The notes under the pieces were generated by a model that had not been told where the DNA came from, did no database searches, and worked only from the letters and a program-made list of their open reading frames with translations. Positions 38,393-41,857 of a stretch of DNA of 56,604 bases are shown here, piece after piece (the stretch's first letter is position 1; the number at the start of each line of letters is the position of its first letter). The DNA is from Burkholderiales bacterium (GTDB lineage Bacteria; Pseudomonadota; Gammaproteobacteria; Burkholderiales; Burkholderiaceae_C): contig JAGWLR010000009.1 in NCBI GenBank assembly GCA_028864885.1, positions 1-56,604 on the forward strand, given 5' to 3'. A program made the position numbers and the translations under genes.

Positions 38393-38917
38393 TCAGGCAG
38401 GTGCGATCAGGTATTCACGGACCAGTTCGCGCGCCCGGTGCAATCGGCTCTTGATGGCGCCGGGTTGCTCACCCAGCCGTTCGGCAATTTCGGCAATCGT
38501 CAGCTCCTCGAAGTCTCGCAGCAAGATCACTTCCAGGTAGTGCGCGGGCAGGGATTCGAGCGCATTGGCCAGATCCACACGCAAAGCGTCGTCGCTGCGG
38601 GCAGCCAGTTGCTGTTCAATGAGTTCGTCTTCCAGCGGCTCGTGCTTGAACATGATGCGCTCAAGGCGGCGGCACTCGCGTTTGATCACCACAAACAACC
38701 AGGATGAAAACGCGGCGGCCGCCTTCAGGCCTGTGACTTTGCGCGAGACCGTCAACAGCGATTCCTGAACCGCGTCGTCCACATCACTGGCGTGGCAGTG
38801 TCGCCGCGCGTAGCGGCGGGCATCGGCCTGACACACCGCCAGCAACCGAGAAATGGCTGCCGGGTCACCCGTTTGCGCAGCCAGGATCAGGTGTGTGGAG
38901 TCGGTCTCGGCGACCAT
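38393..38917 (-). CDS. ECF-type RNA polymerase sigma factor
   Basis: 174 residues from the ATG at 38917. Region 2 reads DVDDAVQESLLTVSRKV and AAFSSWLFVVIKRECRR; region 4 reads ALESLPAHYLEVILLRDFEE, LTIAEIAERLGEQPGAIKSR and LHRARELVREY, with the helix-turn-helix for -35 recognition. There are no sigma region 1 or 3 segments, so it is an ECF factor. It follows the DUF2892 gene by one base and is transcribed from the element at 39184-39215. No recognisable anti-sigma gene is adjacent. The same element precedes two other transcription units, and I propose this sigma factor recognises all three, including its own. Confidence 0.93.
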   Translation of the reverse strand: MVAETDSTHLILAAQTGDPAAISRLLAVCQADARRYARRHCHASDVDDAVQESLLTVSRKVTGLKAAAAFSSWLFVVIKRECRRLERIMFKHEPLEDELIEQQLAARSDDALRVDLANALESLPAHYLEVILLRDFEELTIAEIAERLGEQPGAIKSRLHRARELVREYLIAPA

Positions 38918-38918
38918 G

Positions 38919-39134
38919 TCAATGTCCTTTGTCGAGTTTGCGGCCGACCATGGCACACATCGGGCAAAAGCCAATCAGGCCGGTCATGGCCATCATCGCA
39001 CCCACCACACCGGCTGTCACCGCCAGGCCCGAGGTGTGCCAGTTCAACACCGCAAAGGCCAGAGCCATCATTCCCATGATCAGTCGCAAGGCGCGTTCCC
39101 AGTTCGGTACATTTTTCACGTAAAACATGTCCAT
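38919..39134 (-). CDS. DUF2892 family small membrane protein with CPMC motif
   Basis: 71 residues. N-terminal NVPNWERALRLIMGMMALAF, then a second helix (GVVGAMMAMTGLIGFCPM) ending in the Cys pair C57-P-M-C60 at the membrane edge. DUF2892 proteins have RxxR...GxxLL and a T-G-x-C-P ending; most carry CPLY, so the second Cys here makes a possible redox or metal-binding CxxC. A good ribosome-binding site (AAAGGAG) precedes the ATG at 39134. It is the first gene of the sigma-factor operon and might act as sensor or anti-sigma substitute; that is only a guess from position. Confidence 0.87.
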   Translation of the reverse strand: MDMFYVKNVPNWERALRLIMGMMALAFAVLNWHTSGLAVTAGVVGAMMAMTGLIGFCPMCAMVGRKLDKGH

Positions 39135-39151
39135 CTCCTTTGATGTGGGTA

Positions 39152-39170
39152 GATCCCCAAAAGGGGGATC
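39152..39170 (-). promoter_or_regulatory. Hairpin in the leader of the DUF2892-sigma operon
   Basis: A 7-bp perfect stem GATCCCC / GGGGATC with a 5-base loop, between the putative ECF promoter and the ribosome-binding site of the DUF2892 gene. No T run follows on the minus strand, so it is not a simple terminator; it may protect the transcript or affect translation. Confidence 0.45.
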
Positions 39171-39183
39171 CGATCCTCACCAG

Positions 39184-39215
39184 CTAAGAGGGGGCGGGGG
39201 CCGGAAACGGTTCGC
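39184..39215 (-). promoter_or_regulatory. Putative ECF promoter 1 (DUF2892-sigma operon)
   Basis: Read on the minus strand: GCGAA, 20 bases, CTCTTAG, ending 49 bp upstream of the DUF2892 start codon. The same two boxes with the same spacing occur at 40821-40852 and 40879-40910. GCGAAC is in the position and style of an ECF -35 element (GAAC core), and CTCTTAG would be the -10. This copy implies autoregulation of the sigma gene. Confidence 0.8.
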
Positions 39216-39244
39216 AGCAAGGCAAAAAAATCAGCGAGGTTCAC

Positions 39245-40197: not shown

Positions 40198-40791
40198 TCA
40201 TCGCGTTGCTCTCGACACCCACTGTGGCGCGTCATCCAGCCCATCTGCCAAGTGAGCTTGTTCAGCCAAGTCCAGCAAGTGATCGACGGACCATTGGTCA
40301 TCGGCGTAAGAGCCATAGTGGCAGGCCTGAACGACACCCATGCGGTCGATCAAAAAATCGGCAGGCATGCCGGCGTGGCCTGCCTCACCTCCGGCCGACA
40401 GATGGGTGGGAAAGGGCCCTGTCATGCCCTTCAGCACTGCCGGCAGGTTTTTGGGGTGGAGCATGCCCCACCACGACGATTCGATGCCGAAGCGCTTGTA
40501 GTACACCTTGCCCGGATCAGCGATGCAATCGAACGGCAGATCGCCTTGATAAGGCCGCATCGCTTCGGCGCTGGAGTGGAAGAACACAACCTCTTTGATG
40601 CCGGCGGCGCGGAGCTCACCCACCCGCTCCACCATCTGCCGCAGATGCAGGTTGCAGATCGGGCAGCCAGCAAAGCGGCGGAACTGCAAATGGATGAATG
40701 CAACAGAGGGGTCGGGCAAGACCACCGATGCGCCTTGCAGGTTTTTGAGTTGCAGAGGCGCGAGGCGTCTGCCTGGGGTCAAGCGATTCAT
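40198..40791 (-). CDS. Peroxiredoxin-like AhpC/TSA family protein
   Basis: 197 residues from the ATG at 40791, with GGAG upstream. Thioredoxin-type fold with FRRFAGCPICNLHLRQM, so the peroxidatic-position Cys43 is followed by Cys46 in a CPIC pair, and EVVFFHSSAEAM, PYQGDLPFDCIADP and GMPADFLIDRMGVVQACHYG. This pattern fits the peroxiredoxin-like branch of AhpC/TSA, which is not proven to be peroxidase. No signal peptide, so cytoplasmic. It heads the unit with the thioredoxin and CcdA-type genes, 29 bp behind the ECF promoter element. Confidence 0.88.
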   Translation of the reverse strand: MNRLTPGRRLAPLQLKNLQGASVVLPDPSVAFIHLQFRRFAGCPICNLHLRQMVERVGELRAAGIKEVVFFHSSAEAMRPYQGDLPFDCIADPGKVYYKRFGIESSWWGMLHPKNLPAVLKGMTGPFPTHLSAGGEAGHAGMPADFLIDRMGVVQACHYGSYADDQWSVDHLLDLAEQAHLADGLDDAPQWVSRATR

Positions 40792-40820
40792 GTTGGATCT
40801 CCAGAAGCATGGTCTGACAA

Positions 40821-40852
40821 CTAAGAGGGGCGACCATGCTGTTTGGATTCGC
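40821..40852 (-). promoter_or_regulatory. Putative ECF promoter 2 (peroxiredoxin-thioredoxin-CcdA operon)
   Basis: On the minus strand GCGAA, 20 bases, CTCTTAG, ending 29 bp before the peroxiredoxin-like start codon. It faces promoter 3 with only 26 bp between the two -35 boxes, so the two units diverge from one control region. Confidence 0.8.
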
Positions 40853-40878
40853 CATTTGCTCAAATTATTTTCGGTGGT

Positions 40879-40910
40879 GCGAACCCAAATGTCGACTTGG
40901 CCCCTCTTAG
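40879..40910 (+). promoter_or_regulatory. Putative ECF promoter 3 (Lys-Cys repeat protein operon)
   Basis: On the plus strand GCGAA, 20 bases, CTCTTAG, ending 48 bp before the ATG at 40959. All three copies are exactly 32 bp and all have CC directly before the CTCTTAG box. Confidence 0.8.
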
Positions 40911-40958
40911 TCGGCGAGAGACCGTTCTCTCTGTTCAACCCTGACTAGGAAAATCGAC

Positions 40959-41219
40959 ATGAAAACTTCTTTGAAGCTGGCTTCGCTGGCCGCCTTGACC
41001 GCCGCCACGCTGGCTTTGCCTGTGGCCGCCCAAGAGGCGGGTTCGGCGACCAAGTGCTCACCCCGTGCGATGGCGAAATGTGGGGCCAAGTGTGGCGCCA
41101 AATGTGGTCCGAAGTGCCACGCCAAAAAGCGCCACCTGCGCAAGGCCGCAAAATGCGCGCCCAAATGTGCCCCGAAGTGCGCGCCTAAGTGCGCTCCGAA
41201 GTGCGCACCCAAGAACTGA
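40959..41219 (+). CDS. Secreted Lys-Cys repeat protein
   Basis: 86 residues. A clear signal peptide (LKLASLAALTAATLALPVAA) is cleaved around residue 24. The mature chain has ten Cys, every one preceded by Lys, in two blocks with a 4-residue period: AKCGAKCGAKCGPKC (39-53) and AAKCAPKCAPKCAPKCAPKC (63-82), joined by a basic linker HAKKRHLRKA. No other domain. Such a peptide could bind soft metals such as copper or serve as a sacrificial thiol in the periplasm; it recalls, without sequence identity, the Cys-repeat substrates of MNIO enzymes (EGKCG type), but no MNIO gene is present. It is controlled by the ECF element at 40879 and its stop overlaps the start of the DUF6969-like gene. Confidence 0.85.
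   Translation: MKTSLKLASLAALTAATLALPVAAQEAGSATKCSPRAMAKCGAKCGAKCGPKCHAKKRHLRKAAKCAPKCAPKCAPKCAPKCAPKN
41076..41123 (+). repeat. First block of 12-bp coding repeats (four units)
   Basis: Four 12-bp units of the form AAR-TGY-GGN-SCN (last one CAC-GCC) encode KCGA/KCGP/KCHA. Third bases vary between units, so the amino-acid pattern is kept by selection more than by recent DNA duplication. Confidence 0.8.
41151..41210 (+). repeat. Second block of 12-bp coding repeats (five units)
   Basis: Five consecutive 12-bp units AAR-TGY-GCN-CCN encode KCAP five times, followed by a sixth start (AAG-AAC). Unit number could change by slippage and may differ between strains. Confidence 0.85.
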
Positions 41220-41857
41220 TGCTGCCCGGGCTGCGTCTGTTAGCGGTGTACACCGATCTGGCGCAGCGTGGGGCGCACCTGCTGGAGGGCATCCTCAAGG
41301 GGCAGCCCCCCCGCCAGTGGGCACACTATCCGCCAGATGATGCGATGAGTGCGAGTGGGTTTCAATGGTTCTACCATTCGCATGATCCGCTGGATCGGGC
41401 TGGGGCGGCCGAACACGGTCACCTCCACATCTTTGCTCGACGGCCGCTGTGGGCCCGACGCTTGCGATCCCGCGATCAGCGTGCATTTGAGTCACTGTGC
41501 GGTCAGGTGCATGCCAATGCCGATACCCGACACCTGTTGGCGATCGGTCTGGATGCCAAGGGGGTGCCCATCACCTTGTTCACAGTCAACAGTTGGGTGA
41601 CGGGCGATGCGATGCTGAACGCGCCCTTGACACTGGATCTGCTCCGCACCATGAGCCTGGATACCGGATACACCGAGGTCGATGCGGTGATGGAGTCACT
41701 GGTGCAATTGTGTCAGCCAGAATTGCACCAGCTACTTCAGCGGCGTGACCGCACCTTGGCGGCCTGGCATCGCGCAGACAAGCTGCACGACACCGAGCTG
41801 GAGGTGCTGTCTGAAATCCGCATCGACCTGGATGCCAAGCTGTCAGGAGGCGGCTGA
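41219..41857 (+). CDS. DUF6969-like protein coupled to the Lys-Cys repeat protein
   Basis: 212 residues from the ATG at 41219, which overlaps the previous stop (TGATG). No signal peptide. Characteristic blocks are [51 protein letters not shown] and [19 protein letters not shown] associate this pattern (YHxH...EHGHxHxF...LFTxNxWVTG) with DUF6969; no function is known to me. The His-rich core (HSHD, EHGHLH) could bind a metal. Tight coupling suggests it works on, with, or during production of the repeat protein. Its end overlaps katG by 15 bp, convergent. Confidence 0.72.

Follow-up and report, generated by a model that had tools for sequence, protein, structure and literature searches.

Within the 56,604-nucleotide stretch of DNA analysed here (contig JAGWLR010000009.1 of the Burkholderiales bacterium assembly GCA_028864885.1; hereafter the window), positions 38393–41857 hold a gene module centred on an extracytoplasmic function (ECF) sigma factor and three copies of a 32-bp promoter-like element. 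An earlier note, made from the sequence alone, had proposed a self-contained ECF regulon, and we can now say with high confidence that the module forms a compact, self-contained and predicted autoregulated one, because the element is unique to the module in its own genome, keeps its place in front of the same genes in relatives, is tied to the ECF gene and, in 11 further genomes, matches only inside module loci. The same element stands 5' of the sigma gene and of the target genes and is conserved with the sigma gene, as in an autoregulated regulon. The ECF factor would transcribe three units within 3.5 kb: a DUF2892-ECF pair, a thiol-redox operon, and a pair encoding a Lys-Cys repeat protein and a DUF6969 protein. 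Such a regulon would be very small and have clear limits, and its predicted promoter is directly testable.

The three elements described before, of the form GCGAA-N20-CTCTTAG, are present at 39184–39215 (minus strand), 40821–40852 (minus) and 40879–40910 (plus). They lie 5' of the DUF2892-ECF genes, of the peroxiredoxin-thioredoxin-ccdA operon, and of the Lys-Cys and DUF6969 genes, with 50, 30 and 49 bp, respectively, between the element end and the start codon of the DUF2892, peroxiredoxin-like and Lys-Cys genes. In relatives the first element keeps its position, the second is found 5' of cytochrome c or thioredoxin, and the third again precedes the Lys-Cys gene. A chance origin, judged unlikely at the outset, finds no support: 100 dinucleotide shuffles made from the window produced no element, and in all 3.54 Mb of the genome (194 contigs) there is no copy besides these three and no match of the reversed pattern used as control. 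The layout fits the −35/−10 pair of an ECF promoter.

A search with the ECF protein over 399 genomes of the family found relatives at E ≤ 1e-40 in 18 of them, the own genome counted, and in none of the five congeneric ones; the module is therefore accessory. Relatives with the same genes keep the elements. In one genome (G274, locus L092) all three recur, 5' of the Lys-Cys and DUF6969 genes, of a cytochrome c-thioredoxin-CcdA operon and of DUF2892-ECF; another (G335) has the same arrangement spread over two contigs (L091, L135), and G055 (L040) carries a shorter version of the module. A scan with a DUF6969 alignment yielded 80 named loci, the best 80 of 585 (973,316 bases), which include Curvibacter, Acidovorax, Rhodoferax, Herminiimonas, Undibacterium, Noviherbaspirillum, Paraburkholderia and Propionivibrio; they were picked by the pattern F-x-x-N-x-W-V-T, and those residues are therefore not independent evidence. 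The pattern GCGAAY-N18-CCTCTT occurs 46 times in these loci and its reversed control not once. Isolates that carry the module include Propionivibrio dicarboxylicus DSM 5885 (L170) and Noviherbaspirillum soli (L156). The element is found in 18 of the 19 loci with an ECF relative (at least 60% identity) and in 3 of the 61 without (Fisher p = 6.8e-14), two of the latter (L145, L165) lying on contigs that end before or inside the ECF gene. A search with GCGAAYC-N17-CCTCTTRS across the whole of 11 further genomes, selected for having the module at their loci, gave 22 matches, all inside the module locus, and none for the reversed control.

The element also follows the sigma gene over larger distances. 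At nine loci where the ECF factor is 54–60% identical (L041, L042, L095–L101), it stands 5' of the ECF operon, exact or with one to two changes, and the only module genes found there are the ECF gene and, in eight loci, DUF2892. At 50–52% identity (L103–L105) there are more altered look-alikes, such as TGAATCC with CTCTTGG, so that sigma gene and element appear to change together. The comparison supports recognition of GCGAAYC-N17-CCTCTTAG by the ECF factor. The consensus of 64 distinct elements reads GCGAAYC(C/G)TTTTG ... CCTCTTAG, in which the C at position 7 reaches 98% without being forced by the search pattern; the two boxes keep a fixed spacing and lie mostly 24–70 bp 5' of a start codon. 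Among the 66 element rows, two elements are counted twice where L094 and L139 overlap, and seven have no BLAST gene assignment, five of which precede a Lys-Cys gene that BLAST missed. Some matches were set aside. The pattern GCGAA-N19..21-CTCTTAG matched 14 of 200 family genomes, but its reversed control matched more, and among the 13 other matching genomes only two (L035, L036) have the match next to an ECF relative. An element (L043, genome G173) that lies at the end of a contig among unrelated genes was dropped, like other single matches.

The sigma factor (38393–38917, minus strand, 174 amino acids) has both the sigma2 and the sigma4 domain of an ECF (group 4) sigma factor above cut-off (PF04542, 1.9e-7; PF08281, 1.8e-15; TIGR02937, 3.7e-22). 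One base separates its start codon from the stop of the preceding gene (38919–39134, minus; PF11127, 8.1e-17), which encodes a small DUF2892/YgaP-like_TM membrane protein with a CPMC motif, a candidate sensor. In line with the earlier note, Pfam and NCBIfam gave no match to an anti-sigma family for the module proteins; the proteins scanned thus include no canonical ECF/anti-sigma pair, and a regulator of unknown type such as DUF2892 is possible. A feature that had escaped notice is that all 29 ECF-linked copies of DUF2892 carry CPxC, whereas the other PF11127 copies (nine in seven genomes) have CP[PAL]Y in the six that are readable. This difference leads us to favour, as an inference, a mini membrane regulator that works as a redox switch and would control the ECF factor. 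Mechanistically, the CPxC pair of DUF2892, which would be co-transcribed with the sigma gene, would respond to an oxidant or a soft metal, and DUF2892 would take the part of a classical anti-sigma factor in controlling the ECF factor. The cysteines of the ECF factor itself, C41 and C82, occur in 40 of 40 aligned relatives; we gave them no weight as a sensor because cysteines near these positions are common in ECF factors. The window protein also differs from CorE in having no Cys-rich C-terminal extension. ECF factors that lack a cognate anti-sigma partner have been reviewed (PMC8999054), and in the passages covered the likeness is that no anti-sigma gene adjoins the window sigma gene, while DUF2892 is not among the neighbours that those passages name. 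The open-licence PMC literature searched holds nothing that joins DUF2892 with 'ECF sigma'.

The second unit would be a periplasmic thiol-redox operon of thioredoxin and CcdA, accompanied in the window by a peroxiredoxin, whose place a cytochrome c takes in many relatives. It comprises a peroxiredoxin-like gene (40198–40791, minus; AhpC-TSA_2, SelL-related; PF13911, 1.7e-7; NF040769, 2.2e-14, below the cut-off of NF040769), a thioredoxin-like gene with a signal peptide judged by eye (39786–40178, minus; PF00085, 1.4e-10) and ccdA (39248–39786, minus; DsbD_TM-like). Pfam and NCBIfam back the ECF, DUF2892, thioredoxin-like, peroxiredoxin-like and DUF6969-like assignments made previously. For the CcdA-type gene the family was right, but the gene is broken into two pieces, 39649–39786 and 39248–39658, which are in different frames, with about 59 residues missing between them (47–105 of a 242-residue relative). 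L040 and L092 carry an intact 242-residue ccdA in a single frame, and the break in the window may be either an assembly error or a real loss. The cytochrome c that replaces the peroxiredoxin in many relatives, which the earlier note had not foreseen, is of SoxA/TsdA type. In Acidovorax soli (L147:5691–5965) an N-terminal stub of thioredoxin runs directly into the last third of ccdA, both being remnants; together with the broken window gene, this indicates that the operon has decayed at least twice.

The third unit pairs an exported Lys-Cys repeat protein (40959–41219, plus; 86 amino acids, 10 Cys, 16 Lys) with the DUF6969 protein (41219–41857, plus; 212 amino acids; PF22308, 4.7e-52, 177 bits against a curated cut-off of 27), the stop of the first overlapping the ATG of the second by 1 base. 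Going beyond the earlier note, the comparison shows DUF6969 as a general partner of exported Cys-repeat proteins. It usually adjoins such a secreted protein, the repeat of which varies among loci: APKC/AKCGAKC in the window type and NPCAAK, NPCAP, NPCAG or KCGACAAK in others. In a fixed test, 74 of 103 loci had a Cys-repeat open reading frame within 900 bp upstream of DUF6969, compared with 48 of 1316 windows drawn at random from these loci. A looser search, which had no control of its own, located a Cys-repeat protein at another place in the locus for twelve of the 29 misses. A comparable test on 3.5-kb windows in a further sample showed the protein in 10 of 18 DUF6969 loci against 3 of 200 control windows, one of the ten (L252) being doubtful, with the look of an antisense artefact, and another (L241) not being independent since it carries the protein of L196. 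Within the 103 loci, L158 repeats L040, and L188 and L191 have identical Cys-repeat proteins; L158 and L145 were dropped for the neighbour and residue counts, leaving 101 loci. A functional link between DUF6969 and Cys-repeat proteins is quite probable.

PF22308, a domain of unknown function for which the gene context offers a role, occurs in 22 of 200 family genomes and 20 of 398 phylum genomes, the own genome being in both samples, and in 0 of 14 control genomes each. Its neighbours in the 101 loci are CcdA (28), thioredoxin (27), this ECF factor (20), rhodanese (19), an FGE-sulfatase-like protein (15), a MerA-like protein (14), cytochrome c (14), a P460-like protein (13), the carboxymuconolactone decarboxylase family (11), DUF2063 (8), DoxX (7), MNIO (6), KatG (3) and YHS (2); one representative of most families was named by Pfam, DUF2063 and DoxX by eye. 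This mixture suggests thiols, soft metals and oxidants alike and does not single out one of them, and the MerA-like neighbours give hints of soft-metal stress. The MerA-like protein joins HMA to a pyridine-nucleotide oxidoreductase (L141:8439–10190 and 13 other loci). A plasmid collection held no near match of the module, while DUF6969 relatives below 60% identity occur on 167 plasmid records. A Burkholderia glumae plasmid has a KC protein and DUF6969 together with thioredoxin, CcdA and a different sigma factor, which a zf-HC2 gene accompanies; the KC/DUF6969 pair thus adjoins more than one ECF type.

The DUF6969 protein itself is strongly conserved at residues that could bind metal. H53, H55, E65, H68, H70 and R176 are found in all 102 DUF6969 sequences, D41 and D177 in 101, H105 in 100 and H36 in 98. 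The AlphaFold2 model is confident (predicted local distance difference test, pLDDT, 93.2; predicted template modelling score, pTM, 0.91) and places the conserved histidines on or at the ends of strands 36–43, 48–54, 67–74 and 103–111; they are most naturally read as a putative metal-binding active site. No known fold was assigned, given that Foldseek against the PDB returned 69 matches at E up to 10 and none at E ≤ 0.001, and that hmmsearch against PDB sequences gave a single match at E 0.99. DUF6969 has no signal peptide by eye and its Cys-repeat neighbour has one, so any action of DUF6969 would precede export. Whether it is a modifying or metal-loading enzyme is an evenly balanced call. The Lys-Cys protein is predicted to be unstructured (pLDDT 49); its Cys repeats are present, and its Sec signal peptide was judged by eye only. 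The open-licence PMC literature searched does not mention DUF6969, and holds nothing relevant by title for PF22308, NPCAG or NPCAP and nothing with NPCAAK.

Taken together, we lean narrowly towards one explanation of the whole: an ECF regulon with sensing by the CPxC pair of DUF2892 and a DUF6969-processed Lys-Cys buffer that is kept reduced. The Lys-Cys protein would be made as a disordered, thiol-rich chain; the cytoplasmic DUF6969, through a putative cluster of its invariant His/Glu residues, would modify or metal-load its cysteines; and the exported product would serve as a periplasmic thiol or metal buffer, which thioredoxin and CcdA would keep reduced. For the module as a whole, defence of thiols or against metal or oxidant is a role that we hold about as probable as its opposite. 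More tentatively, and falling short of even confidence, DUF6969 may represent a new class of cytoplasmic metalloenzyme, with a fold outside the PDB, that modifies the cysteines of exported Cys-repeat proteins: a widespread family resembling ribosomally synthesized and post-translationally modified peptide systems, unrelated to MNIO/bufferin and here under an ECF regulon with a CPxC mini-membrane sensor. If so, many overlooked exported Cys-repeat proteins would be candidate modified metallopeptides or thiol buffers.

The same conserved residues leave room for a different partnership, in which the regulon holds but DUF6969 serves as chaperone, metallochaperone or escort, binding the Cys-repeat protein ahead of its export, and the Lys-Cys protein works without modification. 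For either role the known basis is gene context together with residue conservation, a His/Glu cluster can also carry metal, and an unstructured Lys-Cys protein looks like a client. Strictly invariant His, Glu, Arg and Asp in spite of very different partner repeats look more catalytic, however, and we consider an escort rather unlikely, though the strongest competitor of processing by DUF6969.

Processing by DUF6969 invites comparison with known exported peptides. The SigF/MrpX system of Azospira, which deals with reactive chlorine, comprises an ECF-controlled Met-rich exported peptide, a methionine sulfoxide reductase and an anti-sigma gene. The window module shares with it a small exported scavenger-like peptide under ECF control, but has Cys/Lys repeats instead, with 2 Met in the 86 residues of the Lys-Cys protein, and no methionine sulfoxide reductase or anti-sigma family among its proteins. 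Bufferins, according to PMC12452194, are MNIO-modified Cys peptides with a signal peptide that help under copper stress, and Buf1 clusters often include ECF sigma genes. As described there, they resemble the Lys-Cys protein in the Sec signal peptide (putative here, by eye), the many cysteines in short repeats and the partner gene downstream; they differ in that the window module has no MNIO, DUF2063, DoxX or NrsF and that its partner is DUF6969, a family absent from the text of PMC12452194. We propose that DUF6969 may act on the Cys-repeat protein before export by analogy with MNIO on bufferins, while being an unrelated protein; it would then be a second enzyme family doing the job of MNIO.

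The module is not a member of the MNIO/bufferin clusters since it has no MNIO enzyme, and here the earlier gene list was right: the only MNIO of the genome lies on another contig (C14, the window being C134). A Lys-Cys protein of bufferin type, modified by an MNIO encoded elsewhere with DUF6969 as accessory, could draw on that distant gene and on the 6 of 101 DUF6969 loci that have MNIO nearby (e.g. L044). It is nevertheless improbable, as the other 95 loci show no MNIO within the available stretch and the genome's MNIO has a Cys-rich precursor-like gene of its own. That MNIO gene (L222:4356–5449) forms a separate bufferin-like cluster with a sigma-like gene and an exported precursor-like gene that has SCSKK repeats.

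Several observations weigh against the proposed regulon and its mechanism. A looser element pattern, applied to 19 genomes (18 with an ECF relative, most of them more distant, and G173), gave 33 matches, of which 21 fall at loci of the ECF gene or the module and 12 elsewhere, with 5 for the reversed control, so that some more distant relatives have extra or chance sites; no module gene lies at the off-locus matches in G258, G143, G062 and G335 C217 (L136–L138, L140), which may be due to chance. L151 and L152 have elements without an assigned gene, and L169 has the ECF gene without the exact element. At L040, L156 and L171 the ECF gene does not adjoin DUF2892, which weakens the sensor idea. No Cys-repeat protein was found in the available stretch of 17 of the 103 DUF6969 loci, and, given the broken ccdA and the Acidovorax soli remnants, the redox operon is probably not always needed. 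As for the 32-bp element being the operator of another regulator or the promoter of another sigma factor, with the ECF gene merely one target, the CCTCTTAG part is indeed not the usual ECF −10, but the two-box layout with fixed spacing and start-codon distance, the rarity of the element without the ECF gene and its persistence beside that gene where DUF2892 is the sole other module gene found make this very improbable.

Some Cys-repeat proteins near DUF6969 are larger than that of the window. At L196 (6999–8078), L179, L199, L208, L212 and L215, large exported proteins combine dozens of NPCAAK or GACG repeats with a P460-like domain; they come mostly from Alphaproteobacteria, often with an FGE-sulfatase-like gene, and the cytochrome P460-like domain of the L196 protein matches at E 1.8e-4, below the Pfam cut-off. 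At L046, NPCAAK repeats are joined to a SoxA/TsdA-type cytochrome c. The window module itself is flanked (35772–44713) by genes for an MFS transporter and a chloride channel at one end, and by katG and a ferritin-like gene (Dps-type by eye) at the other; katG is also found near DUF6969 at L056, L057 and L059.

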